DNA from: Bacteroidota bacterium
GTDB lineage: Bacteria; Bacteroidota; Ignavibacteria; Kapaibacteriales; NICIL-2
Reading direction: 5' to 3'
Length of the DNA: 55,985 nt
Assembly: GCA_019695345.1 (NCBI GenBank)
Contig: JAIBAE010000022.1
Coordinates: forward strand, 1-55,985
The notes beneath the pieces are model-generated. The model saw nothing but the letters and a program-made list of their open reading frames with translations. It had not been told where the DNA came from and did no database searches. Of the stretch, positions 793 to 42,174 are shown piece by piece (within the stretch, counting starts at the first letter, position 1; each line of letters begins with the position of its first letter). Position numbers and translations under genes: made by a program.

Positions 793-931
793 CCCATATT
801 TCTGCCTGCCTAAATTTTTTTTCGGATGAAATGTAACTTTCCTTTTGGTGTTCTCTCTTACTGTTTGAGTTTTGCGCAGAACTTACACGATTAACTAACG
901 AACCTTTACGAATCTGGGAATTACTCCGACC

Positions 932-1530: not shown

Positions 1531-3030
1531 ATGAAAAAGAATCTTAATAACCTACTGAACAACGCGGCGGCGTTCGAGAACAAAACGGCACTCTGGTCGG
1601 AGGATGAGTTGCTCGATTTGCTTAAGAACGCTCCCGTTACTCCAACTCCTCCTCCGGCGGGCCGCACAGTTCAACCACTCACCAATACATGGAGGAACAT
1701 TATGTTTGGAACCACACTCCTTGCCGGGGCAACGGCAATTGTTCTGTGGCTTATGCCGCACAATGCAGAACAAATAGATACCAACGCCGATGTTGCATTG
1801 AACACAGTACAATCACAACAAAACAATGCAAACCAACGGGCTAATGTGCAGGCAGAAACAAAGGTAGAAATTAATAACTCGCTATCGCAATCGGCACCGG
1901 GCATTGCCGCTAACAGTAACGTTGCCATGCCGGAAAGAACCGTAGCCGAAAGCAACGCGTCACCGCAGATAGCTGATAACGTTGTACCAATACCCGAGAA
2001 AATCAAAGCACCAAAAGTGCTTGACCTAACAACACAGGAACTTGAAAAACTTGGTGTGAAAAAACAAAACAACACCTATGTGTTGATTGCAAAGCTTGGA
2101 GTTGATTACAACAAACCCTATGCAGTAAATGCCTTCTATGCAAACGCGGATAACCACCGCACAAGCATACAAGTAAACCAGAACATGGTTAAATCAAAAC
2201 TCGCACAATTTGAATACGATACAACACAACAAGCAAGTGTTATGAACTTTACTGTAACACTCGATGAACTTGATACAAAAGCAACACTGATAAAGGCAAA
2301 CGAAGCAACATCCGCAACGGTGTATCCCATTATCATCTCGCACGATAGTAAGGATGTAAACGGAAGCGAGGCAAGCAAAGTAATGATATTTGGCGAACCC
2401 GAAAACGAAAACGAGATGAACCGCCTGCGCGATGATGTTGCTTCGTTATTTGATGTGTTCAACCCTGTTGCACACAAACAAACCGAACGCAATGTTGCAC
2501 GTTTCCCATTAATAAGTAAACTGATTCCCGTGCGCATACAACACGCAGTGCCAAACAGCGGAAGCGCCGAGATAATTCTGTGGTACTACCCAACCGATGA
2601 ATTTATCAGCAAACTGCCATCACGCTATGCCGACCAAATTCGCAAAGAATCCGAGCGCATAGAACAAATAGAACAAAAGAACGAAAAAGACTCCGGCACC
2701 GCAACCATACAACAACGCTATGCAGGCGAATACCAATACACCGATGTAGCACGCTCACGCAGCGGAGCAGTAGAAATACTCTCGGTAGGACCCAATCCCG
2801 CACGCGAAAACGCAACACTACGGTATAAAGTATCCGAGCCACGCACCGTACACATTGTACTCTACGATATGCAGGGCGCAAAAGTAGCAGAGCTTGCAAC
2901 CGCCAACGCCTACACCGGCGAAACCGAAGCACAACTGCAACTAAACAACCTTGCATCGGGCGCATACCTGATAACACTGGTAACCGACCGCGGCGAACAA
3001 GCCATTCAACGATTGATAATTCAGAACTGA
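1531..3030 (+). CDS. Membrane-anchored putative anti-sigma protein with C-terminal T9SS sorting domain
   Basis: This 499-residue protein has no cleavable signal peptide. Residues 1-55 are hydrophilic with an acidic helix (ALWSEDELLDLLKNA), and residues 57-75 form one transmembrane segment (TTLLAGATAIVLWLM). A long N/Q/A-rich linker and a region of about 160-400 rich in predicted beta structure follow. Residues 418-499 match a T9SS type A sorting domain: VGPNPARENATLRY, IVLYDMQGAKV, LASGAYLITLVTDRG, ending IIQN. An N-terminal cytoplasmic helix plus one membrane span directly after an ECF sigma gene is the arrangement of anti-sigma factors. A T9SS CTD on such a protein is unexpected because cargo normally enters through a Sec signal peptide. 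Either the span acts as an uncleaved signal, or the CTD is used as an outer-membrane or T9SS contact domain. The anti-sigma role is an inference. Confidence 0.8.
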   Translation: MKKNLNNLLNNAAAFENKTALWSEDELLDLLKNAPVTPTPPPAGRTVQPLTNTWRNIMFGTTLLAGATAIVLWLMPHNAEQIDTNADVALNTVQSQQNNANQRANVQAETKVEINNSLSQSAPGIAANSNVAMPERTVAESNASPQIADNVVPIPEKIKAPKVLDLTTQELEKLGVKKQNNTYVLIAKLGVDYNKPYAVNAFYANADNHRTSIQVNQNMVKSKLAQFEYDTTQQASVMNFTVTLDELDTKATLIKANEATSATVYPIIISHDSKDVNGSEASKVMIFGEPENENEMNRLRDDVASLFDVFNPVAHKQTERNVARFPLISKLIPVRIQHAVPNSGSAEIILWYYPTDEFISKLPSRYADQIRKESERIEQIEQKNEKDSGTATIQQRYAGEYQYTDVARSRSGAVEILSVGPNPARENATLRYKVSEPRTVHIVLYDMQGAKVAELATANAYTGETEAQLQLNNLASGAYLITLVTDRGEQAIQRLIIQN

Positions 3031-3047
3031 GAGAGAGGAGAAACGAA

Positions 3048-6000
3048 ATGAAAACACAACAAAACTACCCGATACATAAAGGCATGTTCCGACTCTCAAC
3101 TCTGATTGCGGATACAACTCAACAAATACATACCCAACAACGTATAACAGATAATGGTAACCCGCTTCGGGTTTCAGGGCGCGCCTGCGCGGCAACCCTG
3201 TCCGCTCCCACCCGCCTGCGTCTTCCGCACGGAATGGTAAGTGTGGTTGTTATGATGCTTATACTTGTTGCTTCAACATTAACGGCACAGTACGGTCAGG
3301 TTGAACCGGTAATTGCACGATGCGGCTCACCACGGTTTCTTGTATCGCAAGGCGAAGCAAATGCGTTTGGGTTACGCTCTACCAATGTAACCGTAAATGT
3401 AGTTGGTGTAATAGCCGATGTAAACGTACGCCAGGTATATGTAAACAACGGCGCAACACCCGTAGAAGCAACCTACATATTTCCAGCATCAACACGTGCG
3501 GCAGTGTATGGCTTAACCATGACCATTGGCCCGCGCATCGTTAAAGCAGTAATCAAAGAAAAACAAGCCGCGCGTGCAGAATACACTGCCGCCATACAAC
3601 AAGGCAGAACTGCAACCTTGTTAGACCAAATAAAACCAAACGTATTCCAGATGCAGGTTGGTAACATCCCCGCACACGACTCCGTTGTGGTAGATATGCA
3701 CTACACCGAAGCTTTGGAACTACGCGAAGGCGAATACGAATTTGTATATCCCGGTGTTGTTGGCCCACGCTATGTTAGCGGTGTGCCATCATCCGAATAC
3801 GATAAAGTTCTTAACAGTTCCGATTTACCCAAAGAAGTTCCCGGAACATTTAACATTGTTACCAATATCTCGGCAGGTGTTCCCGTTGCCGAGGTAACAA
3901 GCCCATCGCACTCGGTAAAAACAACAACACTCGATGGCGTTAGCCGTGCGTTGCTTTCAACACCAAAAAAGAATAGCATAACATCGGTAAGCATGGCGCA
4001 TAACGATGCACTCAACCGAGATTATGTGTTACGGTACCGTTTAACAGGCCGTGCAATAGAATCGGGGTTGTTATTATACAAAGGCGAGAAAGAAAACTTC
4101 TTTATGCTAATGGTGCAACCACCAAAAAATGTTGAGATACCAAATATCGTTCCGCGTGAGTTTGTATTTATTGTAGATGTAAGCGGTTCGATGCAAGGCC
4201 AGCCAACAGTTATTGCTCGCGATATGATGAACAACCTGTTCAAAACATTACGCCCATCCGATAAATTCAATATCATGATGTTCAGCGGTGGCAATATGGT
4301 GTTCTCGCCAAATTCAGTAGAGGCCACGCCCGATAACATTAAACGTGCGTATGGCTTTTTAACAAGTGGCTACGGCGGCGGCGGAACGGAATTACTTCCT
4401 GCATTAAAGGTTGCGCTTGCTATGAAAGCCGAGCCCGGCTACGCCCGCAGTTTTATTGCCTTAACCGATGGCTATGTTACCGTAGAGCGCGAAGCATTTG
4501 ATTTGGTACGTAACAACTTAAACAATGCAAACTTCTACGCATTCGGTATAGGCACAAGCGTAAACCGTTGGTTAATGGAAGGACTTGCCCGCGCAGGTAA
4601 TGCCGAATCGTTTATTGTTACCAACTTAAGCGAAGCACCTGCAATGGCAGAAAAATTCCGTCAGTACATAGAGGCACCTGTGCTTACAGGCGTAAAAGTA
4701 GATTGGGGGAATATGAATGTGTATGATGTTGACCCGGGCACAATTCCATCGGCAACATCCAAACGCCCAATAGTAGTGTATGGTAAATGGAAAGGCGATG
4801 CAACCGGAACATTACGCTTAACAGGTAATGCAGCCGATGGCGCTTACACCTTCGATGTAAACATTGCCGCACAACCACAACTACCCGAGCACGCCGCACT
4901 GAAATACCTGTGGGCACGTAACCGTATTAAATTTATTGAAGACGGTATGGTTGGCAACTGGGGCTACGAGCGCGCCGCCCAACCCGATGAGCAACAGCTT
5001 ATAACATCAATTGGGTTAAACTATAACCTGCTTACCAAATACACATCGTTCATTGCTGTTGATAGCACAACACCGGTTAAGAAACCTGTGGTTAAAAAAG
5101 ATACGTCAGGGAAGCTACATGTGGCTTGCATCGAACCTTCGTATTTAAGAAAATATATCGTAGATGGAGAAGACATCACTGATGAGGTAACCGAACCACT
5201 TGGTCAAGTACCTCAAACCCCAAGCGGTACAAACTCCCCAACAGTAGGTAAAAAACAATCAACATCAGTTGGTAATTCATCTTCACCAAAAAGTAAACCT
5301 GCTAAACCTGCACCGCAACAGGTTACGGTAACTGCACAAAAAGAGAACGTAGATGCTAAAGAAGTTGGAAAAATTAAGAGTGTTAGCGCAGAACCCTTAG
5401 CAACAACCCGCGAAAGCGCAGTAAGCATTGCAACAACACAAGCTGGTGTGCAAGCAAGCGGCGGTGGGTTGGTTGTCCGTGGCAGTCGTAATAGTGATAA
5501 TAAATATCTTGTAGATGGCCAAGACTTAACCGATGTTGTTACTGGTACACTGGGTACTCCAGCATCTTCAGCAGGTGCAAATTACACACCTACTTCAAGC
5601 GCATTTGCTACCGAAGATGTACAAGTAGTAACCGGGAATGCAAATGCACAATATGGAAACGCATTAGGCGGCGTGGTAAATACAGTTATGAAAACAGGTA
5701 AGGCTAACAATAGTTCAGAAGCAAGAGATGCTAAAGGCACAACACCAACAGATAGCCGTAACCAAACAACAACTAAGGTTGATGAAAAGCACAATCCATC
5801 AAAAGAATCATTAGAGCAAGCTAATAGCAATGCTGCACCAACATTTAAGAGCACAACTACTAACTCAATACCAACAGAGCAACAACCTAAAACACAAGGC
5901 GTAACACCTCCCCCTCCGCCAACAACAACAGCGGTAATACCGGAAGCAAAGCCACAAACCGAGCCGGCTAAACAGCCACAGGCAGTTGTACCACAACGCA

Positions 6001-7483: not shown

Positions 7484-7522
7484 GTTTTTTTGTTCCTATA
7501 GATGTACATGAGAACCTTAACG

Positions 7523-7589
7523 TTCTCTCCCGCAAACACAAACGCCCTGCATTGCTGCAAGGCGCGGTGCGGTCTGCGTTAGCAAATAC
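7523..7589 (-). repeat. GCTATCGC-type structured intergenic repeat, copy 2
   Basis: The copy runs from TTCTCTCCCGCAAAC to GCGGTCTGCGTTAGCAAATA, with stem CCGCA/TGCGG. It is identical at all but one position over 66 bp to the copy at 8824-8890, so the two flank the TPR lipoprotein gene as direct repeats. A perfect inverted repeat GAGAAC/GTTCTC (7510-7527) caps its left end. Confidence 0.85.
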
Positions 7590-8805: not shown

Positions 8806-8823
8806 GGCTGCTATGTTGAGAAG

Positions 8824-8890
8824 GTTCTCTCCCGCAAACACAAACGCCCTGCATTGCTGCAAGGCGCGGTGCGGTTTGCGTTAGCAAATA
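8824..8890 (-). repeat. GCTATCGC-type structured intergenic repeat, copy 3
   Basis: This is a near-identical twin of the 7523-7589 copy, with stem CCGCA/TGCGG. Read on the minus strand it begins TATTTGCTAACGC only 8 nt after the serS stop codon, so it forms the start of the serS 3' untranslated region. On the other side it also fills the short gap after the TPR lipoprotein gene. Confidence 0.88.
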
Positions 8891-8898: not shown

Positions 8899-10161
8899 TT
8901 ATCCAATCCAATCGAACCGTGTGTATGGGCGTAATGCTTCCGGTATGCGGATGCGTCCGTCTTCGGTTTGGTGGTGTTCTAATAAGGCAACCATAATGCG
9001 CGATGTTGCCAAGCCACTACCGTTAAGCGTGTGTACAAATTCTAATTTGCCTTGCTCGTTGCGGAAGCGGATGTTGGCGCGGCGTGCCTGAAAACTCTCG
9101 AAGTTGGAACAACTGGAAACCTCCAGAAACTTTTGCTCGGCGGGCGACCATACTTCAAGGTCGTACGTTTTTGCACTGCTAAATCCGGTATCGCCTGTAC
9201 ATAACTGCAACACGCGGAATGGTAATTCTAATGCGCGTAATATATCTTCTACATCGCCTACTAATAATTCTAACTCGTTGTACGATGTTTCGGGTTTTAC
9301 AAACTTTACAAGTTCTACTTTATTGAACTCATGAACACGTAAAAAGCCGCGTGTATCTTTACCGTAACTGCCACCTTCGCGGCGGAAACATGCAGAGTAT
9401 CCGGCAAACTTTGTAGGAAGGTCTTTTTCGTTTAATACATCATCGCGGTAGTAATTGGTAAGCGGAACTTCTGCTGTTGGGATTAAAAACAAATCGTCCA
9501 CCGTGCAGTGATACATATCATCTTCCATTTTTGGTATTTGTCCTGTACCAAGCATCGAAGCGCGGTTTACCACAAACGGCGGCATCATTTCGGTATAGCC
9601 GTGTTGTGCAATGTGCAAGTCCAAAAACATGTTAATCATGGCGCGTTCTAACGTTGCACCTTTGCCTGTATAAAATCCAAACCCACTACCCGATACTTTT
9701 GCGCCGCGTTCAAAATCCAGAATGCCAAGTTGCTTTGCAATCTCTAAGTGGTTTTTGCGGAACTCTTGCGGAATGCGTTGTGCAGTTGAGCGAACTTCCA
9801 CATTGTCATCGGCCGATGCGCCAACAGGAACCGAGCTGTGCATCATGTTAGGGATGCGTAAAACAATAAACTGCATTTGTTCTTCAATCTCGCGTAGCTT
9901 ATCATCGTTAGCTTTTATGCTGTCGCCAACGGTGCGCATCTCTTCAATTTTAACAGTGGCGTCTTCTTTATTCTTTTTCAGTTTGGCAATTTCTTCGCTT
10001 GTAACATTACGTTGGTTTTTTAGCGCGTCGGTTTCCTGAACCAAAGTGCGGCGTTGTGCATCAAGGTCAAGTAACTCCTGAACATTAACTTTTTCGTTTT
10101 TATTGGCAACATTTTGCAAAACTGCATCCGGATTCTCCCGGATAAATTTCATATCAAGCAT
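8899..10161 (-). CDS. serS: Seryl-tRNA synthetase
   Basis: This cytoplasmic class II aminoacyl-tRNA synthetase charges tRNA-Ser (and tRNA-Sec) with serine using ATP. The 420-residue length is normal for the family. An N-terminal antiparallel coiled-coil arm (about residues 25-105, heptads such as LLDLDAQRRTLVQETDALKN) reads the long variable arm of tRNA-Ser. The catalytic domain shows GFGFYTGKGATLERAMINMF, the serine-binding TAEVPLTNYYRD, motif 2 around FRREGGSYGKDTRGFLRVHE, and motif 3 GSGLATSRIMVALLEHHQ. The C-terminus IRIPEALRPY is also typical. It is transcribed with or near the AlkC-like and methyltransferase genes, but gaps of 168-259 nt with repeats argue against a tight operon. Confidence 0.99.
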   Translation of the reverse strand: MLDMKFIRENPDAVLQNVANKNEKVNVQELLDLDAQRRTLVQETDALKNQRNVTSEEIAKLKKNKEDATVKIEEMRTVGDSIKANDDKLREIEEQMQFIVLRIPNMMHSSVPVGASADDNVEVRSTAQRIPQEFRKNHLEIAKQLGILDFERGAKVSGSGFGFYTGKGATLERAMINMFLDLHIAQHGYTEMMPPFVVNRASMLGTGQIPKMEDDMYHCTVDDLFLIPTAEVPLTNYYRDDVLNEKDLPTKFAGYSACFRREGGSYGKDTRGFLRVHEFNKVELVKFVKPETSYNELELLVGDVEDILRALELPFRVLQLCTGDTGFSSAKTYDLEVWSPAEQKFLEVSSCSNFESFQARRANIRFRNEQGKLEFVHTLNGSGLATSRIMVALLEHHQTEDGRIRIPEALRPYTRFDWIG

Positions 10162-11725: not shown

Positions 11726-12976
11726 TTACTTTGATAGAAGGATTGCGATTTCCATGTTGGCGGTGCCGGCAAACATATCAAACGGCTGAATGTCTCTTGT
11801 TGCGTAGCCGTGTTGATTCCACAGGCGTAACGAATCGGGGATTTCGTCCACACCACAAAAGATGTGTACTACTTTTTCGGGGTTGCGCTCGGTTATTGTT
11901 TGTATTACGTTTTCTTCTACGCCTTTGCGTGGGGGGTCGAGAATGATGTGTTCTTCGGGTCCTTTGCGGGGTAGTTTGTGTTCGATAAAATCACCATTAA
12001 TGTTGCCGGTTAGGAATTTCATGCGGGCGGTGTGTTCTGTTTTTTCTGCCATGATGCGCGCCGCCTGTATAGACTCGCCTTCTTGCTCAATACCTACTAT
12101 TTCTTTGTAGGCATCGCCGTATGCAAACGAGAAGAGTCCGTACCCGCAGTATAAATCCAGCAGGCGTTGGTTTTCGCTTGGCGCAAGCATACTGCGAATG
12201 GATTGCACAAAGGGTGTTACCATGGATTCGTTTACCTGAGTGAATCCGGTTGGCGGTACAAAGAATGTTTTGCCTGCTAATGCTATGCGCATGTAATCAA
12301 ACCCAAAGAGTTTTTTCAGGCGTATGGTTTTAGAGTCGAGTGGTGTTTGGTCTAAGTAATACGCCGAGCGAGTTGGGTCGTGGTAGGCAAAACACGATAC
12401 AACTTTTGGGCATTCTTTTTTTAGTATTTCGGCAAGTGATTTTAGTTTGCGTACAACTTGTGCATCAATATCGCCAACGTTAAGTATAACAGTAAACTCG
12501 GTGTATGTGCCACGCACAACAACGTAATTCATGACCTGTGCTAAAGCAATATATGAGTTAAGAGTAAGTTTGTTTGCAATGGTGTGGTAGATATTATGGT
12601 GTTCGGGGCAATCGAGCGCAGATTCTGCTACATCACGTTTCATGGTACCGGAGCCATCGGCAAAACGCAATGATAATGTTCCGTGGTCGTCCCATACACG
12701 GCGTTTGCTTGTTGTGCGGTAACCACGTGCTTTAGGCGAAGGGATAAGCGGTTTAGGATTACCACGCAAACGGTGAACCTTCCAGAATTTCTGGATAGCA
12801 TCGTTTTTCCACTCGCATTCTTTTTGGTAGTCTTCTTGTGCAAACGGTTCGGCATTTCGGGTGGGAATACCCGAAATCCCTGCCATGATAACAGAAAAGT
12901 CGCGAGGGTTTTGCGGTTCTTCCCGCTTAAAAAACGGTTGTTTACGTGGTTTTGCAGACGTTGGTTTGTATGGCAT
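11726..12976 (-). CDS. RNA 5-methyluridine methyltransferase, TrmA/RlmD family
   Basis: This SAM-dependent enzyme would methylate C5 of a uridine in rRNA or tRNA. The 416 residues contain the SAM-binding motif LLDLYCGYGLFSFAYG near 272-286, GIEQEGESIQAA as motif II, LDPPRKG near 342-348, a cysteine in HIFCGVDE near 371 at the place of the catalytic nucleophile, and ANMEIAILL at the C-terminus, where a Glu acts as general base. An SPKARGYRTTSKRR segment near residue 80 is the RNA-side motif of the family. Oddities: the usual SCNP around the catalytic Cys is FCGV, and the four-cysteine iron-sulfur motif of RlmD is absent, as is a TRAM domain. The substrate (tRNA U54 or a 23S position) cannot be set from sequence. 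Confidence 0.85.
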   Translation of the reverse strand: MPYKPTSAKPRKQPFFKREEPQNPRDFSVIMAGISGIPTRNAEPFAQEDYQKECEWKNDAIQKFWKVHRLRGNPKPLIPSPKARGYRTTSKRRVWDDHGTLSLRFADGSGTMKRDVAESALDCPEHHNIYHTIANKLTLNSYIALAQVMNYVVVRGTYTEFTVILNVGDIDAQVVRKLKSLAEILKKECPKVVSCFAYHDPTRSAYYLDQTPLDSKTIRLKKLFGFDYMRIALAGKTFFVPPTGFTQVNESMVTPFVQSIRSMLAPSENQRLLDLYCGYGLFSFAYGDAYKEIVGIEQEGESIQAARIMAEKTEHTARMKFLTGNINGDFIEHKLPRKGPEEHIILDPPRKGVEENVIQTITERNPEKVVHIFCGVDEIPDSLRLWNQHGYATRDIQPFDMFAGTANMEIAILLSK

Positions 12977-13170: not shown

Positions 13171-15000
13171 ATGACACCAAATTCAACTGATCATATCTTC
13201 CATATTCCGGTAATGGGAACAGCGTACACTATTGATACGCCTGTTAAAGTTGCCCATTACGGTATTACATCGGTAATGTCCATTATAGACCACAAGCTTG
13301 TGGAACAAATGCGGCACTATTATTCCCAACAGCAAGGGATTCCGTTTACACCAATTAAAGACGACGAACACGATGCACGTGCCCGTACGATAACAGGGTA
13401 TCTTGACTTAGTACAAGATATAGTGGATAAAAATTTTGCGGCACTGTTACAAACGCCATTCCAGCCCGGTAGCGAAATCACAAAATACTTCGAGATGCTT
13501 CCGGATTCCTCGCCATTAAAACAAGAATACAATCGTATGCTTGCGTTAGATGGCAGCGAGAAAGAGACAGTTCAGGAATACTTACGGAAATCCATCAAAC
13601 CCGGCGATATTGATGTAAACATCATGACGAAGGTTGATAGTGCTAACTATGCAAAGAACCGCGAACAACTACCCACCGAATACAACGATGCACATGCTTC
13701 GCTTAGGGGGTTTGCATTAAGTAAACTAAACTCTGCCGTGGAATTTTCTGCCGGAATGAACCCACGGTTGTACGGGTATATAGCAACGTTCGATGACTTC
13801 TTCCCCGATGCAAATGGGGTAATCAAGAAAAGAATAATTCTGAAAGTAAGCGATTACCGCTCTGCATTAATACAAGGAAAGTTTCTGGCTAAAAAAGGAT
13901 TATGGGTTTCGGAATTCAGAATTGAATCGGGGCTAAATTGTGGCGGACACGCGTTTGCAACCGATGGCGATTTACTTGGCCCAATTATGCAAAAGTTTAA
14001 GGACAACCGTCAGGAACTTGTGGCATCGTTATTTGAGGTTTATAAAGATGCATTAAAGTCCGCAGGTAAATTTGAATTTACAGCACCACCACCTGTTAAG
14101 ATAAGTGTACAGGGTGGTGTAGGTACTCAGGAAGAACATCAATTCCTGATGCAGTACTATAATGTAGATATAGTAGGTTGGGGATCGCCCTTTCTGTTGG
14201 TGCCGGAAGCTGTATGTATTGATGATTATACAATGGAAGTAGTTCGCCAAGCCAAAGAAAACGATTTATACCTAAGCGATGTATCGCCACTTGGCGTGCC
14301 GTTTAACAGCGTACGTGGCAGTTCCTCCGAGAGCGAAAAACTAGAACGTGTGCAAGAAGGAAAGTACGGATTTGCATGCCTTAAAAAGTTCTTAACATTT
14401 AACACAGAGTTTAGCGAAAAACCATTGTGCCTTGCTTCCAAGCAATACCAAAAACATAAAATTAATCAACTCAAAGAACTTAATCTGCCGGAGCCTGAGT
14501 ATAAGGCAGCATTAGATAAGATAACAGTAAAACAATGTTTGTGTGTTGGCTTAGGTAATGGTGCGGCAATCAAAAACGATATGGAAATGTATCAAGGAAC
14601 AAAAGGTGTTGCAATATGTCCGGGTCCCAACATTGCATACTTCGATAAAATTGTATCGTTACGAGAAATGGTTGACCACATCTACGGGCGCATCAATATC
14701 ATATCCCGCACCGATCGCCCCAACTTCTTTATCAAAGAACTCAAAATGTATATTGATTACATAGCCGTGCGCATAGAACGATGTGCGGGCGATGTATCCG
14801 AACAACAAGCAAAATACTTCGAGCTATTCCGCACTAACTTAGAGGAAGGTATCGCATATTACGAATCACTTTTCTCTACTATAGCACCGTTCTTCAGCGA
14901 TATAAAGGAACAAGTATTTACGGAGTTAAACAAACTAAAAGAAGAATTGGAAGTACGTTGTGCTGCTGCGCAAAGCCGCACCGAACTACAACCTGCATAG
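13171..15000 (+). CDS. Conserved protein of unknown function, 609 aa, possible TIM-barrel-like enzyme
   Basis: I cannot assign a family with certainty. The frame opens at 13129, but the ATG at 13171 (MTPNSTDHIFHIPVMGTAYT) is preferred because the upstream codons look like untranslated leader. The protein is soluble, with no signal peptide or membrane span. Motifs that look catalytic or ligand-binding are ESGLNCGGHAFATDGDLLGP (about residues 250-270), VQGGVGTQEEHQFLMQYY (about 312-330), VGWGSPFLLVPEA, LCVGLGNGAA and GVAICPGPNIAYFDK. The order Cys-Gly-Gly-His, then a Gly-rich GGVGT turn, then GWGSPFL recalls phosphate/FMN-binding loops of TIM-barrel enzymes such as nitronate monooxygenase or IMP dehydrogenase. 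That is only a resemblance. The C-terminal 120 residues are helical. It stands alone after a divergent promoter region. Confidence 0.9.
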   Translation: MTPNSTDHIFHIPVMGTAYTIDTPVKVAHYGITSVMSIIDHKLVEQMRHYYSQQQGIPFTPIKDDEHDARARTITGYLDLVQDIVDKNFAALLQTPFQPGSEITKYFEMLPDSSPLKQEYNRMLALDGSEKETVQEYLRKSIKPGDIDVNIMTKVDSANYAKNREQLPTEYNDAHASLRGFALSKLNSAVEFSAGMNPRLYGYIATFDDFFPDANGVIKKRIILKVSDYRSALIQGKFLAKKGLWVSEFRIESGLNCGGHAFATDGDLLGPIMQKFKDNRQELVASLFEVYKDALKSAGKFEFTAPPPVKISVQGGVGTQEEHQFLMQYYNVDIVGWGSPFLLVPEAVCIDDYTMEVVRQAKENDLYLSDVSPLGVPFNSVRGSSSESEKLERVQEGKYGFACLKKFLTFNTEFSEKPLCLASKQYQKHKINQLKELNLPEPEYKAALDKITVKQCLCVGLGNGAAIKNDMEMYQGTKGVAICPGPNIAYFDKIVSLREMVDHIYGRINIISRTDRPNFFIKELKMYIDYIAVRIERCAGDVSEQQAKYFELFRTNLEEGIAYYESLFSTIAPFFSDIKEQVFTELNKLKEELEVRCAAAQSRTELQPA

Positions 15001-15137
15001 CGCCATCAATTGCGGCGACAGAACCACTGTGCAAGAAACACCATCTATCGTGAATAAACGATAAGGAATACTTGTACTTATCACAACGTAGCCAGACCGA
15101 TACGATGTAGAAACAATCAAGTGTGAATATCTGTTTT

Positions 15138-15170
15138 ATCGTAGCGACGCGATGCCTCGTGTCGTAACAG
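15138..15170 (+). repeat. Family C palindromic repeat, copy 2
   Basis: The core is GCGACGCGATGCCTCGTGTC followed by GTAACAG. The inverted repeat GACGCGA/TCGTGTC has one mismatch. It is the counterpart of the 11571-11603 copy in the opposite orientation. The gap 15001-15254 otherwise shows no feature. Confidence 0.55.
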
Positions 15171-15254
15171 GATAAGGGAGCAGTTCAAAAAACGTTAAGG
15201 AAATATTGCTATACAGGTTGAACATTCTTATATCAGTTTAGTACAACATCAATC

Positions 15255-15677
15255 ATGGAAATCTCAAACGATACACAAGCCGTAATAGAATATCTTGATA
15301 ATTACTCGGGCAATAACCTGCGTAAGAAAAACGACATGGCTACAATCTTTGAGCTTGCCGCAACAAAAGACTCAGCGGAGATAATCAATACCATAGTGTT
15401 TTCGGGAACCTCGTTGTGGAAGGTATTTGGTGTGTTGCGAAAACAAACACCGCAAAGCGAGGGCTACAAACAATTAGAAAACGAGTTTGCTGCATCCATG
15501 AATGAACTCCGAAGCAACCTTTCTGTATTAGTAGAAGAAACCGAAGAAGAAATCCTGCAACGTTTTCACGACATCTACCTAAGCATGAACGGCGGCGTAA
15601 TACGCAACCTTACCGACTTAGCCCACGACCTTGCCCAGTTTAAAGAACTCCAAAACGAAATGAAGCGTAACGGTTAA
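15255..15677 (+). CDS. Hypothetical helical protein, 140 aa
   Basis: I do not recognise this protein. It is acidic, without signal peptide or membrane span, and almost entirely predicted helix, with long heptad-like stretches (FAASMNELRSNLSVLVEETE and LTDLAHDLAQFKELQNEMKR), so a coiled-coil or helical bundle is likely. It has no cysteine or obvious catalytic motif. Codon use matches its neighbours. It follows the 609-residue unknown gene at a distance of 254 nt that includes a palindromic repeat, so co-transcription is uncertain. Confidence 0.75.
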   Translation: MEISNDTQAVIEYLDNYSGNNLRKKNDMATIFELAATKDSAEIINTIVFSGTSLWKVFGVLRKQTPQSEGYKQLENEFAASMNELRSNLSVLVEETEEEILQRFHDIYLSMNGGVIRNLTDLAHDLAQFKELQNEMKRNG

Positions 15678-15710
15678 TTGCACGATACATGTTTTATATG
15701 GAGTAGTGCT

Positions 15711-15775
15711 GTTGTTTCCGGCAGTATACGCCGTGTAGTACATGGGCATGTTGGTGCCGTCCTGCAATAGCAAAG
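15711..15775 (-). repeat. GCTATCGC-type structured intergenic repeat, copy 5 (flipped stem pair)
   Basis: Ends are GTTTCCGGCAGTA and TTGGTGCCGTCCTGCAATAGC. The stem is CGGCA/TGCCG instead of CCGCA/TGCGG, so both arms changed together. The 15678-15981 gap holds this element and an AT-rich stretch before the Omp28 gene. Confidence 0.8.
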
Positions 15776-15981
15776 AATAGCTAACTATTTGCTATATAAG
15801 TAGCTTGCTTTATGTATATTTTTACCGGATATGGTACAACGTAGCTGGTTTTTTGTTATGTTGTAGTATTACGCAAGGGGAACCGCCAATTATTGAATAC
15901 ATCTCTATTATTACAACAGTGCGTAATTACCTATCGCAACGCAACTTGGTTTATCTTTCTTCATCAATATTAAGGTGTACT

Positions 15982-18515: not shown

Positions 18516-18577
18516 TTTTTATGTTGTGTATGTATGTTAATCGTATATCTGCGATAATTGTTATTGTAAAAGCTAAC

Positions 18578-18647
18578 GTTCTGAAACCGCATGCGAGGGG
18601 GTTTGATTCTGTGGATTACGCTTGGTGCGGCAATGCGCAAGCATAAA
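18578..18647 (-). repeat. GCTATCGC-type structured intergenic repeat, copy 6 (degenerate)
   Basis: Ends are GTTCTGAAACCGCATGC and TTGGTGCGGCAATGCGCAAGC. The stem CCGCA/TGCGG is intact but the GCGATAGC end is altered to GCGCAAGC. It lies in the 18388-18723 gap together with a terminator and the possible remnant above. Confidence 0.6.
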
Positions 18648-18723
18648 ATTATCCTATTAACTTTTGAGCAGGAATTGTAGATTGCAGTATTGGGTTAACA
18701 CTCCACACACAAGGTATAAAGTT

Positions 18724-19632
18724 ATGAGATGGAAAGGCAGACGCGAAAGCGATAACGTAGAAGACCAACGCGGTGGCGATTCCGGTGGGCTTGGTGGTGC
18801 GTTAGGAAATTCTGTTGGAAGCCGAATTGGCGGGCGTGGCGGGCTTGCTGCCGGAGGGCTTGGCACCATAGTAATTATCATCATTGTAATGCTGATGGGC
18901 GGCGACCCCATGCAAATACTGCAACAACAAGGCGGTGCTACACAACAGTATCAACAGCAACATGCCCCACCGCAACAAACATCTGCCCAGGAAGAAGAGC
19001 TTGCCTCGTTTATTAAAGTAGTACTTGCCGATAACGAAGATATTTGGGGCGAGTTAATGAACAATATGAACAAACAATATCGCTACCCTAAACTTGTGAT
19101 GTTCCGAAACTCTGTACATTCCGGATGTGGCGGCGCAAGTGCCGAAACAGGCCCGTTCTACTGTCCGGCCGATGAGAAGGTGTATATTGATTTGGAGTTC
19201 TACCAAACCATGAAAAATCAGTTTAAGGCAAGCGGCGATTTTGCAATGGCGTATGTTATTGCGCACGAAGTTGGGCATCATGTTCAGCACGTGCTTGGCA
19301 TCTCGGACCGTGTTCACCGCATGCAACAAAGTGTAAGCGAAGAAGAAGCAAATCAGCTTTCGGTGAAGTTGGAATTGCAAGCAGATTTCCTGGCGGGTGT
19401 GTGGGCACATCACGACCAAAAAACAAAAAACATTTTAGAAGAGGGCGATATAGAAGAAGCATTGCGTACTGCCGAAGCAATTGGCGACGACCGTTTGCAA
19501 ATGCAGGCGCGCGGCTATGTTTCGCCGGAGTCGTTTACGCACGGTACATCTAAGCAACGTATGTATTGGTTTAAAAAAGGTTTTGAAACCGGAGATATAC
19601 GCCAGGGAGATACATTTAAAAGTATTAACTAA
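18724..19632 (+). CDS. Neutral zinc metallopeptidase (YpfJ family)
   Basis: The frame opens at 18664, but the ATG at 18724 gives the family's standard N-terminus (MRWKGRRESDNVEDQRGG), so the protein is 302 residues, as usual for the family. A Gly-rich stretch is followed by one membrane span (about residues 38-58, AAGGLGTIVIIIIVMLMGG) and a Gln-rich linker. The metallopeptidase-like domain follows, with CGGASAETGPFYCP and the zinc-binding helix AHEVGHHVQHVLG near residue 180. ELQADFLAGVWAHH supplies the third ligand region (Glu/Asp). The predicted topology is a membrane-anchored periplasmic or extracytoplasmic peptidase. The physiological substrate is unknown for the family. It stands between repeats and is probably a single-gene unit. 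Confidence 0.95.
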   Translation: MRWKGRRESDNVEDQRGGDSGGLGGALGNSVGSRIGGRGGLAAGGLGTIVIIIIVMLMGGDPMQILQQQGGATQQYQQQHAPPQQTSAQEEELASFIKVVLADNEDIWGELMNNMNKQYRYPKLVMFRNSVHSGCGGASAETGPFYCPADEKVYIDLEFYQTMKNQFKASGDFAMAYVIAHEVGHHVQHVLGISDRVHRMQQSVSEEEANQLSVKLELQADFLAGVWAHHDQKTKNILEEGDIEEALRTAEAIGDDRLQMQARGYVSPESFTHGTSKQRMYWFKKGFETGDIRQGDTFKSIN

Positions 19633-19699
19633 ATTTTTTGCTAACGCAGTCCGCACCAAATCGTAAGCACTACATGTATGTTTTTGTGCGGGAGAGAAA
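19633..19699 (+). repeat. GCTATCGC-type structured intergenic repeat, copy 7
   Basis: TTTTTTGCTAACGCAGTCCG begins immediately at the stop codon of the metallopeptidase gene, and the element ends TGCGGGAGAGAAAG. The stem is CCGCA/TGCGG. Confidence 0.87.
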
Positions 19700-19736
19700 G
19701 TGCTACACTCAATTAAGCCGTTATCGTTTAAGTGTG

Positions 19737-22830: not shown

Positions 22831-22869
22831 GGCTTGCTCAGACATGTATCTGGGCAAGCCATTTTTTTT
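22831..22869 (+). terminator. Rho-independent terminator after the IgGFc-domain gene
   Basis: GGCTTGCTCAGA and TCTGGGCAAGCC pair over 12 bp around CATGTA, followed by ATTTTTTTT. The T-run merges into the next repeat element. Confidence 0.9.
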
Positions 22870-22935
22870 GCTATCGCCTGACGGCACCCTGCGTTCAGTA
22901 ATACACCACCGTCACGATTGCCGCAGAGAACGATA
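22864..22935 (+). repeat. GCTATCGC-type structured intergenic repeat, copy 8 (flipped stem pair, paired with copy 9)
   Basis: Begins TTTTGCTATCGCCTGACGGC inside the terminator T-run and ends TTGCCGCAGAGAAC. The stem is CGGCA/TGCCG. It forms a head-to-head pair with 22941-23006. Confidence 0.8.
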
Positions 22936-22940
22936 GCGAA

Positions 22941-23006
22941 GGTTCTATCCCGCAAACTGTTGCTGTTTATTGAATGATGGTTGGTGCGGACTTGCGATAG
23001 CAAAAA
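22941..23006 (-). repeat. GCTATCGC-type structured intergenic repeat, copy 9
   Basis: Ends are GGTTCTATCCCGCAAAC and GGTGCGGACTTGCGATAGC, with stem CCGCA/TGCGG. It overlaps the T-run of the ftsH terminator on the minus strand. With copy 8 it makes a palindrome of about 143 bp between convergent genes. Confidence 0.85.
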
Positions 23007-25078: not shown

Positions 25079-25374
25079 TGTGTTGTAAAAAGTGTAATAA
25101 GAATCAAGAAAAATGTAGCAATACTGTTAATGCCCGCATACTGACGTTTAATCCCAAAAAAGAATTGTTTTATAAAAAACGATAAATACCAAAAACAGTG
25201 TATTGGGACTTATGTTTTTTGTATTGTTCTAAAGTAAATTTAACGTAAATTGTCGTAGCCACGATAAAATTATGGGCATTCATCCACATTATAAAGGAAT
25301 ATCTTTCATACAAAGAAATTTCGGCACTACACCAGTTAGTATAGTTGTAGTAACATAAGGGGTACTTTATGTTA

Positions 25375-25441
25375 TTCTGCTATCGCAGGACCGCACCGCA
25401 CATCAACTTCCATACAACCACGTGAGCTGCGGGAAAACAGC
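25375..25441 (+). repeat. GCTATCGC-type structured intergenic repeat, copy 10 (paired with copy 11)
   Basis: Ends are TTCTGCTATCGCAGGACCGC and GCTGCGGGAAAACAG, with stem CCGCA/TGCGG. It is the first half of a head-to-head pair in the long gap upstream of the giant Ig gene. Confidence 0.8.
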
Positions 25442-25506
25442 AATACTTTACAAAAGAACCTTACAGAAAAATAATACGATACCATAGGGGATAATTAAGG
25501 GCAACA

Positions 25507-25578
25507 AGGTTCTTTCCGGCATTGTGCTGTTGTATATATAACATTAACGATTGGTGCCGTCGGGGCGACAGCAAAAGA
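25507..25578 (-). repeat. GCTATCGC-type structured intergenic repeat, copy 11 (flipped stem pair)
   Basis: Ends are AGGTTCTTTCCGGCATTG and GGTGCCGTCGGGGCGACAGC. The stem is CGGCA/TGCCG. It is the second half of the pair with 25375-25441. Confidence 0.8.
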
Positions 25579-25702: not shown

Positions 25703-28700
25703 ATGAACATACGTAGTTATTGTTCATTGATTATTACAATGCTTTTGTGCGTAGCAGGGATGCAGGCGCAGAGTGTTAATTCATTTGCTTTCCATAATAG
25801 TACAGCCACCTTTACTTCGATTGTAGGACAGGGTGGTACAAATGATATTGTGTACCCCGGTAGCGGAGCGGGAACAGATTGGGATGACGACTACTTTACA
25901 GGCATTCCAATCGGTTTTACATTTAGTTATTTAGGGAATACATATACTACTTGTGCTGCGAATGTAAACGGGTTTATGATGCTTGGGGGAACAGCTGTAA
26001 GCGGAAGTTCGTGGGTTCCGGATTTAGATGGTAGCTCCGGCTCAAGCGGCCGCCCTGTACTTGCCCCATTTTGGAGTGATATGGAGTTGTTGGATGGTGG
26101 AAACGGATATTTATCGTACAGAACAGATGGAACATCACCTAATCGTGTTTTTACTATAGAGTGGAATCATGCCGAATGGACGTATACAAGTGGGGTGGAA
26201 AGTATTTCGTTTCAGGTTAAATTATATGAGACTACCGGTATTGTTGAGTTTAATTATCAGCAGGAAGACGCACAGGCATCAACACAGTCTATAGGTGTGG
26301 GTATTTCTGCAGCGGCTACAGGTAGCGGCTCTTTTATAAACATAACAAATGCTAACTACAATACAATATCAACTACAACCGAAACAACTGTTTCAACTAG
26401 ACCCAATAGTAATACACGGTTGCGTTTTACACCAATTGGTGGCTCGCAAACAGCCCCAACCAGCATTGGCTTCACCAATGTTACAAATTCAAGCATGACA
26501 GTAGGTTGGACAAATAACTTGGCAAATGCGGTGGCAAATGTTGTGTTTATTTCAACTGATAATACCAACTTTACACAAACAGGATTTGTTAATACCACGG
26601 GCACAGGTGCGTATTCGTTAAATGTTACGGGATTAAGTGGAAATACAACATATTACGTTAGAGTATATGCAGTAAATAATAGTGGTAGTAGTACAGCACT
26701 AACTGGCTCGCAGACAACTGCTTCCGGTACAATGGTAGGTACATATACAATTGGACCCAGCGGTGCTAGCTTTACCTCGGTTAAAATGGCGATAGATACA
26801 ATGAATGCAAAAGGGTTGGCTGGTGCGGTAGTGTTTGAATTATTACCCGCTTATACAAGTTCGGTTGAAACATTTCCATTAACATTTGGATCTATAACGG
26901 GTGCATCTTCTACAAATACGATAACATTCCGTCCGGCAACTGGAGCCACAAACCTTACAATTACTGGCTCTAATGCAACTGCAATATTAGATTTAAACGG
27001 AATAGACTACTTACGTTTCGACGGGCGTCCCGGAGGTAGTGGTATAACATCGCAGTTGACGATTTCCAACACGTCGGCAACGACTACAACATTATCAACA
27101 GTACGTTTTATTAACGATGCTACCTTTAATACATTTACATATTGTACAATACTTGGGGCAACAATTAATACAACAACTGGTTCGGTATCGGGTGGGGGTA
27201 CAATCCATTTTAGTACTGGTACATCTGCTGGTAATTCAAATAACACAATCAGTAATTGCAATATAGGTCCGGTTAACTCCACAACAGCAGTACCCTATAA
27301 AGCAGTGTATGCCTATAATGCCACAACATCTGCTATGAGTTTGAATAATACATTTTCAAACTGTAATATCTATGATATGTTTTATCCGGCCGGTACCAAC
27401 TATTGGTTTTATTTAGGAACAGGTAATGCCGCTTGGGTATTTAACGGGAACAGTATATACCAAACCCAAACACGTTCGCATACAGCGAGTAACAGTAACT
27501 ATGTTTTTTACTGTGCGAGTTCAAGTGTTAATCAGAAATATACCTTTAACGGAAATTATATTGGTGGAACAGCGCCACAGTGTGGTGGAACACCTATGAC
27601 GATTAATATTGGTGCATCTACAACATTAACGCCACTATTTTATGGCATATATGGTACACGGTCATCATCGTTAACTGATACGATGTTTATTACAAATAAC
27701 ACGTTTAGTAATATTAGTTGGACGACTGCTTCAACCAGTAGTTTAGGTTTTAATTGTGTGTATTCGTTTTCAGGTCCCCAATACATTGTAGGTAATACAT
27801 TTGGTAGTGCAACAGCCACCGGCAGTATTGTGATTAACTGTGTTGCTACTGGTACAACTGGAACAGGTTTTACAGGTGCTTATGCATACTCAAGTTCAAC
27901 ATCACTACCAACTATTATGAATAATAATACTGTTGGTGGTATATCAATGGTAAACACCGCAACTGCTTCAGGATGTTATTTTCAAGGATTGTATCTAAGC
28001 AGTACAACGGGTCCGGGTTCAACTATAAGTAACAATGTGATAGGAAATGCAACAGTTAGTAACTCAATTTCAACAAGTACAGGCATCACCGGTACTGTGA
28101 ATATGAGAGGTATTTACTTGGCAACATCAACAGGTGCTGTTGCAGTAGGTGTAACCAATAATCTAATCGCTAATATTACCTGTAACGGTGCATCTACTAC
28201 TTCGGGTGGTCAGTTTGTGCATGGTATTTATGGCTCAAGCGGCATCCATAATATTGCAAATAATACTATCAGAGATTTACGTAATTCAGCACCAAATGCA
28301 AGTTCTACGAATACAACGGTATCGGTAGTGGGGATAAATCAAGCATCAACTACTACCCCTGCCGGTCCAAGCGGGCATACAATTTCCGGTAATACAATCC
28401 ATACGTTAATAAATACAAATACAACAACAACGGGGTTATGGGTTGTTGGAATCAGTGCAAACAGTGCAACAGCAAGCTCAAACTTGGTTGAAAGAAATAC
28501 AATACATTCATTACGCTGTGCTACAACCACAACAACCGCATCGTGTCCAGTGGTAGGAATGTTAGGATTTGGCGGGCCAACCACCTATCAAAATAACATG
28601 ATACGATTAGGGTATGATGAAGGTGGAAATCCTATCTCATTATTAAATGGATATCAGGGATTCCAAAAAGCTTCAACAACTACCATTAACTTTTGGAATA

Positions 28701-31700
28701 ATAGTATTTATATTGGTGGTACAGTTGCAACCGGAGCTGCAAATTCTCTTGGTATATGGCGGAACGGTATTCCATCTTCCGGTACTGATGACATACGGAA
28801 TAATGTAGTGCAAATAGCACGTTCTGGTGGAACTGGCTCATATATTTGTATGAATGTTGGCAGTGCAACTCCAACATCAGTTGCTGCTGCAATAGCCGGG
28901 TTAAACATTAATAATAATGTGTATTACCATAATGGAGCCGGTGGATTTATAGGTGCGATTCAAATTTCAACATCGTACACCGGATATTCTACAATGTCCG
29001 CATGGCGGGGCGCGGTTGTTGGTGACGGTGCTTCTGGATATGGAAACCCCAATTATATCAATCCAACAGGATCGTCATCTTCCGGCGATTTACACATTTC
29101 CTCTACAGGGGCAACACCTATCGAGGGGAACGGTGCTGCAATCAGTTCTGTTGTAAATGACTATGATGGACAAACACGTTCCGGTTTAACACCAAATGAT
29201 ATTGGTGCAGATGCAGGTAATTTTACAGCAACGGATATATTTCCACCTACTATATCATATACACCAATTGCAAACTCGCCTGTAGCAAGTACAAAAGCTG
29301 TATCAGGCGTGGATATAACAGATTACTCTGGAGTTAATACTACAAGCGGTACACGCCCCCGATTATATTACAAAAAGATTGCAGAGGCAAATACATATGC
29401 CGGTAACACTAGTACCGATAACGGTTGGAAATGGGTAGAGGCAAACGGAACTACAACACCATTCTCCTTTACTATTAATTACTCGTTACTCAATAGTTCT
29501 TTAGCGACAGGTGATACTATTGTATATTTTGTTATTGCACAGGATGTTGCTACAACACCAAATGTGGGATTTAATACAGGTGTATTTACAGCCGACCCAA
29601 CATCTGTGAATTTAACTGCCACAAACTTCCCGATGAACATAGTACGTTTTTATAGAATTCTTCCTTCTGTTAGCGGTACAATAAATGTGGGACCAACAGA
29701 AACGATCAACTCAATTACAAACACCGGCGGATTGTTTGAATATATCAACAACAGAGTTGTTGTAGGTAATGTTACAGCGCAAATTACCGGTAACTTGATA
29801 AGTGAAACGGGAACTGTTGCGCTTAACCAAACTTCCGAAGATGGTACTGGTGGATATACAGTTACTATACGTCCTGCAGCGAGTACAACAGATACAATTA
29901 GTGGTTCTTATGCAGGAGGGTTAATCAGATTGAATGGTGCAGATAGGGTTGTTATTGACGGTAGAAGAGTAGGTGATGCAACAGGAAGAAATTTGACGGT
30001 TCATAATACAAGTACAACGGGATCTGTTGCAACAATTCAGTTGGTTAGCTTGGGTATTGCTGCGGGTGCTGTAAATGACACCATTAGGTATTGTAATTTA
30101 GGTGGTGGGCAGAATACCAATAGTACATCAAACGTTATATTCTCCGGAAGCACAATAAATACAGCAGGTTCAGATAATGATAATTTATCAATTGAGAATA
30201 ATGCTATCTATCGTAGCTATTACGGAATCAGATTATTGGGTGTTAGCGGAAGTGCGCATGACAATATAAATATATCCGGAAACTTTATCGGAGCGCAATC
30301 AGTTATTGGTAATACAGCTTCAGGCGATAGCTTGAAGTATAATGGTATTACGCTTTCTCAAGTTAATACCTCAAGCATAACAAGCAACACTATTAAAAAT
30401 ATATCAACTGCTACAACAAACGGGGCAGGGATTCTTACGGATAACAGTTCGGGATTACTTATAAGTAAAAATGTTATAGATGGTATAATCGGAAATGCAT
30501 CCAGTACATATTATACTCGTGCAATATGGCTCAATACTAACACGATAAACAGTACTGTATCTTCAAATGTAATGAATAATATTAAGTACATTAATACAGG
30601 AAACTGGGGATCATATGGACTAGAATGTTCAAGTGGACTTCAAACAACAAATTCTGTAATCATCAATAACATGATATCAAATGTTGCTCACGATTACGGT
30701 GGAGGAGCAGGTAGTACTTTTGCAGGTTATGGTATTCGAATAAATGGAAGCGGTGGTATACAGGTTATACACAATACCGTTTTATTAAGAGGTACAAACG
30801 GTACACCGGCAAGTGGCACCAATAACTCACATGCTTTTGCATGTATTGGTACTGCGCAAAATATGGATGTTCGAAATAATATCTTTTCAAATAGAATGTA
30901 TGGCTCATCCGGCTCTAAGTCATGGTGTGTATATGCTACCTCGTCGGCGACATTTACCAATTTTGATTATAATATTTTAGATACAGCCGGTAATACATTG
31001 CAGGGTGTGTTGGGGTATTATGGTGGTGATTTAGTAACGATAGCAGCATTTAGAACGAGCATGGGGGGAAATCAAAATACTTTCATGACCTCAGTTCCTT
31101 ATGCGGATTCATCAGCAAATTCAAACTTGCACTTAGGTCAGATAGTTACTAATTACAAAGGCACATCAGTCGTATCATCCATTGTATCAACGGATATCGA
31201 TGGCTTAACACGTTCAAACTATATTATAGGCGCAGATGAGGTTAAACCTGTGATCCAGTTTACCCAACAGCCATCGGGCTCAACAATATGCGAAGGCAGC
31301 AACTTTAGTGTTACCTCCGCAATTACTACTCCTATAACCTTTGATGACGGTGTAACACGTACAACACCAACACCAACATATCAATGGTTGTTAAACGGCA
31401 CTCCAATAACCGGAGCAACCAATGCAAGTTATAGTGTAACAGGTGCAACAACGGCTAATGCCGGAAGCTATGCACTACGCGTATATGCATCGAGTATAGA
31501 CTCGGCAACATCCAATGCTGCAACCGTTAATGTATATACCAATGCAAGCATCACAACACATCCAAGTGGAACGGGTAGTAACCTTTGTCCGGGCAATACA
31601 ACATTTACCTTAAGTGTTACAGCTACAGGTACAACACCAACGTATCAGTGGCAAAAACTTGTAGGTGCTACATGGACAGATATCTCTGGTGCAACAGCCT

Positions 31701-34700
31701 CAACATACCGTCCGGTAGCAGGGTGGGCAACAGCAGATAGCGGTAGTTATCGTGTAGTTGTATCCTCAACATCACCATGTTCACAAAGTAATAATAGTAA
31801 TGTTGCGGTTGTAGGTGTATTTACTGCTGCAAGTATAGCAACTCAACCAACCGTTACCCCATCCAACTCGCGTTGTTTAGGCGATGCCTTTACGTTAAGT
31901 GCTTCGGGAGCCGGTTCTGGGGTGCAGTACCAATGGAGATTAAACAGTACCAATATTACAGGTGCTACAAACTCAACGTATAGCGTAACATCGGCTACCC
32001 TGAGTGATTACGGTACATACGATATTGTTGTTTCTAATACATGTAATAGCGTTACTTCCAATACTATAGTTGTTTCACAAACAACACCAACATCAATAAC
32101 AACACAACCTGTAGCAAGCACAACATTATGTCCGGGACAAACGTACAATGTTAGTGTTGTTGCCGCAGGTGCTTCGTTAACGTATCAATGGCAAAAACTA
32201 AACGGCGCTGTTTGGAGTAATATCAGTGGAGCAACAAGTACATCATTTAGCATAGCATCTGTTACAGCAACCGATGCTGCAAGCTATCGAGTTAATGTTA
32301 CCGGTACATGCGGTACGGTTACCTCGGGCAATGCAGTACTGAACGTGAATGTAACAACAGCAATAACAACCCAGCCAACCCAACCAAGTGCCTATTGTGT
32401 AGGTGATAATATCTCTATTAGTGGTTTGGTTGCCGCAGGAACAAACGTAACATATCAATGGCAAAAACTGAGTGGTGTTACCTGGAACTCTATATCCGGT
32501 GCAACAAGTAGTATATACAGCCAAACAAATGCACAGGTTACAGACTCCGGCTCATACCGTGTGGTAGTTAGCGGTACATGTGGTACGGTAAACTCCAATA
32601 CAATAACAATCATTGTTAATTCACCAATTACGGTAACAACTCACCCAGCATGGAACAATCCAAATAAATGTACGGGCGAATCTGCTATAATAAGTGCTAC
32701 CATAGCAGGTACTGTATCAACCTACCAATGGCAAAGATTTAATGGTACCACTTGGGTAAATATCAGCGGTGCATCAGCATCAAGTTATACACTAAATAAT
32801 ATTGCGCTGGCTGATTCGGGCGATTACCGCTTATTACTCACCGGACCTTGTAGTTCGCCAACAACAACAAATTCAGATAGGTTGTTTGTACAACAAAACG
32901 TACAGATAACAGCAAATCCTCAAGGTTCGGCTGTGTGTGCAGGAAACTCAATTTCACTGTCAGTAACAACTATCGGAACAGTTGTATCCTATCAGTGGCA
33001 ACAAGACCAGCTACGCAACGGCACATGGACTAATATCAGTGGTGCAACAAGTTCTTCATATTCCAAATCAAATGTAACAGTTGCGGACTCCGGTAATTAC
33101 AGAGTATCAATAATTGGTACATGTAGTGCAATACCGGTTGTTTCAACAGGTGCTTCTATAGTAATTCAGTTACCATACTCAGTTACATCGCAACCAACAT
33201 GGCCAACTACACCTACAAATGTAGGTCAGGTTGTTTCGTTAACAGTTGGTTATACCGGTACAGCAAACTTCCAGTGGCAACGCGATCAACAGCGTAACAA
33301 CAACTGGGTTAACGTTGGTACCAACACAGCTACATATTCCTATACGGTTAATACTGTTGCAGATTCAGGTAATTACCGTTGTATAGTAACCGGACCTTGT
33401 ACAGCTGGAAGTGTTACAACAAGTACAGCTGCGGTATATACATGTCAGCCACCAACATTTACTTCGCAGCCACAACAACCGGGTACGTTGTGTCCGGGTG
33501 GTACGTTATCGTTAAGTGTACAAGTAAATACACAAGGTCAAACAGTAACCTATCAATGGCAACGTGATGTTAACCGAAATGGCACATGGACAAATATTAG
33601 TGGCGCTACAAATACATCGTATGTAAATAGTAACCTACAAACTACCGATGCAGGGTTCTATCGTGTACAACTGACAAGTTCTTGTAACGCTGTTCCAGTT
33701 AACAGTAATACGGTAGATGTTGTTCTTAACCAGCCAATTACAGTTACAACTCAACCAACATCACAGACAGTATGTGTTGGAGCAAATATTTCGTTTACGG
33801 CTGCCGCAACCGGCAATAACCCAACGTATCAATGGTTCTATAACAATGCGCCAATCAGTACAGGATTAAATGCTACTGCTGCATCTGCTACATTACAGTT
33901 AACCAATGTATCGGCAGCTAGTGCGGGTTCGTATAAATGTTTTATTAGTGGTACGTGTTCACCTAACGGCGTGTTTACCAATGCGGCAACATTAACAGTA
34001 AACAGTACTGTAACTATATCGCAACAACCACAGAACACAACCGGATGTGCAGGAACTCCTGTAACCTTTAGTGTTGCTGCGCAAGGTACAAATGTTGCCT
34101 ATCAATGGAAGTTCGGTGCTAGCGTAATTAGCGGTGCAACAAACGCCACATATTCTATTGCAAGTCCAACAACAGCAAACAACGGTTCCTATAGTGTAGA
34201 TGTAACAAGTACCTGTGGTAATACTACCAGTAACAGTGCAACATTAACAATTTACATTCCGGCAGCATTCAGTACACAACCTTCAGCTCAAACTGTATGT
34301 CAGGGTACAAATATTTCTTTATCAATTGGTATTAATGCAGATGCAAGCGGACCAACATACCAATGGCGTAAAAATGGTGCCGATATCAATGTGGCATTAA
34401 ACCCAACAGCATTATCTACAACACTTGTATTAAATAATGCTACACCTTCCGATAACGCTACCTATACCTGTATGGTGAAAACAGCATGTCAGCCAAATGG
34501 TATCGTTTCCAACGGAGCAACATTAACAGTAAACCCGGCTACTTCAATTGCAACCCAGCCAACAGGCACAACCGTATGCGAAGGAACTTCGGCAACACTG
34601 AATGTAGTAGCTCAGGGTACATCGTTAACATATCAATGGAAGAAAAACGGAACGGATATCTTTGGTGCAACCAATTCAAGTTATGTAATACCAAGTGTTG

Positions 34701-36970: not shown

Positions 36971-36990
36971 CCTGTAACGTATACACTATA

Positions 36991-37022
36991 AAAGGTCTGG
37001 TAGAAATATCAGACCTTTTTTA
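36991..37022 (+). terminator. Rho-independent terminator of the giant gene
   Basis: AAAGGTCTG and CAGACCTTT pair over 9 bp around GTAGAAATAT, followed by TTTTTAT. It lies 21 nt after the stop codon. Confidence 0.92.
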
Positions 37023-37087
37023 TTTGCTATCGCCCGACCGCTCCTAATGGCTGCTATTAAGATACCGTACTTGTGCGGGATAGTTCC
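37021..37087 (+). repeat. GCTATCGC-type structured intergenic repeat, copy 12
   Basis: It begins TATTTGCTATCGCCCGACCG in the tail of the terminator and ends TGTGCGGGATAG. The stem is CCGC/GCGG, with the fifth pair lost. Confidence 0.85.
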
Positions 37088-42168: not shown

Positions 42169-42174
42169 TAATAA

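Follow-up and report, generated by a model that had tools for sequence, protein, structure and literature searches.

Hairpin repeats behind stop codons and terminator T-runs in a Candidatus Kapaibacterium relative resemble the two ends of a mobile DNA unit of a little-known kind

The stretch examined here, a window of 55,985 nt from a 4.56 Mb genome in 163 contigs (G000, a relative of Candidatus Kapaibacterium), carries repeated copies of a hairpin-bearing element, one of which (19635-19701, + strand, 59.2 bits) follows a Zn-peptidase gene at 18664-19632. With distances measured from the G of the GCTATCGC head to the co-directional stop codon, the head G of this copy (19640) lies 7 nt behind the Zn-peptidase stop, and the original prediction that six copies sit just behind stops was confirmed at distances of 7-13 nt (heads at 8885-, 11715-, 19640+, 42164-, 45575+ and 48357+), its positions being correct to within the definition of the element end. 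The other five are 8822-8890 (-), 13 nt behind serS (8899-10161, -), whose seryl-tRNA synthetase is closest (65%) to that of a Candidatus Kapaibacterium genome; 11653-11720 (-), 10 nt behind a tRNA-U5-methyltransferase-like gene (11726-12976, -); 42102-42169 (-), 10 nt behind the gene at 42175-42711 (-); 45570-45637 (+), 10 nt behind the gene at 43357-45564 (+); and the best-scoring element, 48352-48419 (+, 72.9 bits), 9 nt behind the gene at 45858-48347 (+). Three more copies had been placed inside terminator T-runs. This holds for 22865-22933 (+, head 22870), 61 nt behind the stop at 22808, and for 37021-37088 (+, head 37026), which lies 55 nt behind the stop at 36970 and adjoins a hairpin at 36987-37022 (inverted repeat I7), whereas the third, noted at 55966 and matched at 55969-55985 (+), about 71 nt behind the stop at 55897, is cut by the window end. 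A further copy at such a distance had been missed, at 22940-23006 (-, head 23001), 61 nt behind the stop (23063) of an ftsH-like gene on the minus strand.

Also missed was that copies pair. The elements 22865-22933 and 22940-23006 are the left and right ends of a short unit, 22865-23006; in a second short unit, 45570-45735, the copy at 45570-45637 faces one at 45669-45735 (-) across a 33-nt spacer that holds the middle motif atgataaccgttgtttgt; and in a third, 25374-25577, both ends (25374-25442, +; 25507-25577, -) are model matches. A longer unit, 14960-15776, can be read from a weak copy on its left (14960-15026, +; 22.8 bits, E=3e-4) and a model match on its right (15709-15776, -), with a single gene of 140 aa and no Pfam hit (15255-15677, +) between them. 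The remaining copies are model matches at 728-794 (-), 18577-18647 (-, 36.8 bits) and 54081-54148 (-, 68.5 bits), an element at 7520-7588 (-) that is 97% identical, with no gaps, to 8822-8890, and one at 1876-1942 (+) within the long ORF 1531-3030, which the copy keeps open and whose product has a C-terminal sorting domain. Between the inverted copies that bound 48352-54148 lie three 253-nt repeats (75-100% identical) at 49486, 51161 and 52506, and a single 3755-aa open frame with internal repeats (25703-36970) runs between two element pairs.

The consensus TTTTTGCTATCGC matches the window 20 times with up to 2 mismatches, against 2.2 expected, and with an E threshold of 1 a model based on 18 copies finds 23 matches (best E 6e-17); an Rfam search of the window returned 0 matches at the gathering score. 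A model search of all of G000 gave at least 150 scored candidates. In 1.2 Mb of this genome there are 409 copies against 0 in a reversed decoy, and in 1.94 Mb there are 640, or one per 3 kb, from which we extrapolate to a total of about 1,500. These 1.94 Mb, 42% of G000, are the basis of the genome-wide statistics below, and the gene coordinates used for placement come from our own gene calls.

Each end is 67-100 nt long and consists of TGCTATCGC, 3-4 nt, a hairpin of the form CSGCA(28-35 nt variable loop)TGCSG, GAAAGAAC, about 20 nt and CGTTATCGTGA. The stem is 5 bp and the loop, mostly 30-33 nt, is variable, with few G residues on the sense strand; copies that have the second conserved motif, CGTTATCGTGA, carry it 32-34 nt downstream of where TGCGG begins. 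Stem pairing is kept, with the strongest covariation at one position that is C-G in 232 copies, G-C in 99 and T-A in 18 (n=362), and which, when the alignment is made without reference to structure, is C-G in 13, G-C in 5 and broken in 0. Tested at fixed register, the second (CGTTATCGTGA) hairpin showed no covariation support. In some copies the loop is longer (47-52 nt), and the one at L162:7456-7539 encloses a nested palindrome, GGGCGTATTGCATACGCCC, that looks like another small repeat inserted there. The T-run ahead of the hairpin was considered as part of the element and rejected, as duplicated copies (68-91% identical) differ there; because their homology ends at TGCTATCGC, the T-run belongs to the target and lies outside the element.

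The suggestion that distance to the stop is non-random holds genome-wide. Across the 1.94 Mb, 216 of 594 anchored copies have a co-directional stop 0-20 nt ahead of the head, against 27.8±5.4 under random intergenic placement; in the comparison that re-places each copy within its own gap and in its own orientation, 200 of 549 are observed and 57.2±6.0 expected. The distances peak at 4-11 nt. The tail end has almost no such preference, with 16 tails at 10 nt or less compared to 118 heads and 8.8 expected for either. Ahead of the heads at 0-20 nt, TAG stops are over-used (76/216 versus 279/1439) and TGA stops under-used (8/216 versus 177/1439). Another 68 heads form a second group, at 40-110 nt from the stop. 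For 39 of them, a hairpin like that of an intrinsic terminator ends no more than 18 nt ahead of the head, with a T-run following it, compared to 0 after shuffling. Since a T-rich tract precedes heads of all position classes, terminator T-runs are so often occupied, and two sites are empty in a sister genus (see below), the proposed target-site preference is borne out. The companion proposal, a role in termination from the 3' untranslated region, fared differently: the T-run comes before the hairpin, a terminator is already present ahead of many copies, and roughly half of the heads do not face a stop. An intrinsic terminator, in which a GC hairpin is followed by a T-run, was rejected because the T-run is on the wrong side and outside the unit, and a terminator role for the element is not supported.

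Orientation alternates from one copy to the next (302 opposite versus 93 tandem in 1.2 Mb), and among neighbours 300-1500 nt apart 40 are arranged tail to tail, 18 head to head and 13 in tandem. In short pairs the tail-to-tail spacer, which ranges over 8-60 nt, is 8 nt or mostly 31-57 nt and holds a central palindrome. Duplicated units match from head to head, that is, they duplicate as blocks; the copies constitute both ends of inverted units, which have the inverted terminal repeats of MITEs and, as in REPs and REPINs, replicate as inverted doublets. The fixed orientation described in the original prediction is indeed seen behind stops, but it is explained by the pairing: since the two ends of each unit face outward, whichever unit lies behind a stop turns a head towards it. 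At two sites of conserved gene order, occupied in G000, the unit is absent from the sister genus G002. One is on contig C123, where a 220-nt unit stands between genes at 343-1815 and 2182-3519, and its counterpart keeps a terminator-like hairpin and has no unit; the other is at position 71290 of contig C78. It counts against reading the elements as mobile units that a partner within 400 nt was not detected for 426 of the 640 copies (about two thirds), that target duplications showed no excess over shuffled flanks in 103 units, and that no excision or insertion was seen.

Where 400-1600 nt separate the two ends, 43 of 55 units hold exactly one gene. The cargo genes are AT-rich and apparently accessory: the GC content of inside genes is 0.37-0.38, compared to 0.42, and homologues in 400 kb of the relative G001 were found for 16 of 259 inside and 98 of 605 outside genes, although with lengths matched the difference (2/52 versus 41/337, p = 0.09) is not significant. 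As read from their sequences, the cargo would include acetyltransferases, glyoxalase-like proteins and toxin-antitoxin pairs.

Among 123 genomes of the order, model matches at E <= 1e-4 occur only in G000 and in G002, which represents another genus of the same family and is 91% complete. The G002 version has diverged and has the same build (GCTTCGCARACGGCACC ... TGCCGGAAAG ... AATACC; at least 125 hits), and its pairs likewise enclose genes. The bare pattern GGCACCN{26,36}TGCCGGAAAG occurs 60 times in G000, 71 times in G002, and 0 times in ten others and in the control. At 23 orthologous gene ends, the element is present in both genera at 2, only in G000 at 4 and only in G002 at 2. The shared positions, behind tyrS and one more gene, allow for inherited, functional placement. 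Behind tyrS, the orthologous site in G000 (L038, C55:102061-105264) has a RAYT-like Y1 gene with a lipoprotein-like gene on either side, and that in G002 (L163:1261-3494) an integron-integrase-like gene.

What might move such units? Of three Y1 genes in G000, two are open and one is broken; two of the three lie between elements. Y1_Tnp was not detected in G002, though that genome has at least 125 element hits (at 91% completeness the absence carries that doubt), and G001 has a Y1_Tnp gene and no elements; Y1 as a common mover was rejected on its non-detection in G002. DDE_Tnp_1, found only in G000, and rve, not detected in G000, were rejected as not shared between the two genomes, and an intact IS200-type tnpA was rejected because it has its own, different flanking hairpin repeats. 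An IS200-type tnpA lies inside a tail-tail pair at L036:1250-2240 (G000:C123:45770-46765), with tandem hairpin repeats CATAGCTACGGAGTAGC downstream and GCTCCGATGGAGC upstream that constitute a second repeat family, of the REP kind. Common to both element-bearing genomes is a tyrosine recombinase closest to integron integrases (XerA-like; the two proteins 49% identical), encoded at C37:7625-8743 in G000 and C355:1261-2148 in G002, which in each lies just inside an element; the G002 protein scores 216.5 bits against TIGR02249, below the family cut-off of 265. In five g2 genomes that are element-less by model R2, only Xer-like matches of about 30-45% identity were found. At L162 the IntI-like gene lies behind one end and the contig stops before any second end. 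Because about 20% of genes lie inside element-bounded segments, the position of the recombinase is a lead and not proof, and the existence of related recombinases in other genomes of the order without the motif counts against the link. We regard this recombinase as the best candidate for the mover, albeit a tentative one whose chances are well short of even.

We consider it probable that the repeats are the inverted ends of mobile units that form a family and lack their own moving enzyme, and they look like such ends rather than transcription terminators. Paired ends meet tail to tail, separated by 8-60 nt in the short form and by a cargo gene in the long one. Units would enter T-rich tracts, above all those a few nt behind stops and in terminator T-runs, without detectable target duplication, and would be kept at such sites because insertions there spare genes; movement may rely on the single strand in its folded state and on a trans-acting enzyme. 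It is tempting to go further and imagine a dispersed gene-cassette system, in which single genes between inverted hairpin ends are moved as folded single strands by the integron-integrase-like recombinase and placed behind stops and terminators across the chromosome rather than in a tandem array, but this extended version seems to us unlikely.

One alternative is an ordinary REP or REPIN family moved by a Y1 (RAYT) transposase, its cargo units being accidental pairs of decayed REPINs. The inverted doublets, high copy number, extragenic location and proximity to 3' ends are all as reported for REPs, and the Y1 genes between elements in G000 fit as well. Yet GTAG stands beside the 5' side of the stem in 0 of 588 copies (CTAC is present in the tail window of 82 of the 588), the stem halves are separated by a loop of ~31 nt, one-gene tail-tail units exceed other arrangements, the intact IS200-type gene is flanked by hairpins of another kind, and Y1 genes and elements part company in both G002 and G001, so that we hold this explanation, too, to be doubtful. 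An RNA element of the 3' untranslated region, acting as a Rho-dependent terminator or mRNA stabiliser and kept by selection at gene ends, would account for the concentration 4-11 nt behind stops, for the conserved pairing, for the positions shared at tyrS and one more gene, and for an excess of C over G on the sense strand, weak as it is (skew 0.061 versus 0.005 behind other stops); as quoted in PMC12306157, translation in E. coli is reduced where a REP stands near the stop codon. The heads that face no stop, the copies behind existing terminators, the positions that mostly differ between genera and the duplication of units as blocks all speak against it, and it is less likely still. Least probable is that the elements are integron attC sites and the enclosed genes classical cassettes. 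A site just behind the stop, a hairpin with a variable loop, putatively cassette-like cargo and an integron-integrase-like gene (216 bits with TIGR02249) are what one would look for, but the RYYYAAC ... GTTRRRY boxes occur at shuffled level (3 versus 2.85), the elements are arranged in alternating orientation and not in tandem, and the integrase falls below its family cut-off. Classical attC sites thus fail on boxes and orientation, though the elements could conceivably be a divergent relative of attC.

Within known systems, we file the inverted-unit family as a REPIN/MITE-like variant that is a member of neither. It shares with REPINs and their RAYTs (PMC3116915, PMC3733652) the hairpin-forming inverted doublets, published for REPs as mobile units (PMC3116915), as well as lineage specificity and a place near ORF 3' ends; since REPs next to (<20 bp) the 3' end of ORFs have already been described (PMC3733652), the placement within 20 nt is not new in kind. 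It differs in having GCTATCGC at its ends in G000 where REPs have a GTAG/CGTC tag, in its 5-bp stem, long variable loop and 67-100 nt per end, in its single-gene cargo and in the lack of a Y1 gene found in G002. Like MITEs and mobile insertion cassettes, the units are non-autonomous, with inverted ends and both short empty and longer gene-bearing forms, although here there is no target duplication, no parent transposase was found, and the ends are structured where those of MITEs are simple terminal repeats. Integron cassettes resemble them in the site behind the stop, the variable-loop hairpin, the type of cargo and the IntI-like recombinase in the genome, and differ in their attC boxes and tandem orientation, whereas the present units are opposed and dispersed genome-wide. 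New here are the family itself, its 31-nt variable loop, its single-gene cargo and a second host, G002, in which no Y1 transposase was found; we found no such report for Candidatus Kapabacteria in the literature. The REP/REPIN/MITE world thereby gains a family with one copy per 3 kb, gene cargo and one host without a detected Y1 enzyme. Should the link to the recombinase prove true, the units would amount to relatives of integron cassettes spread over the whole chromosome, and ideas on how attC-type sites arose could be put to the test.
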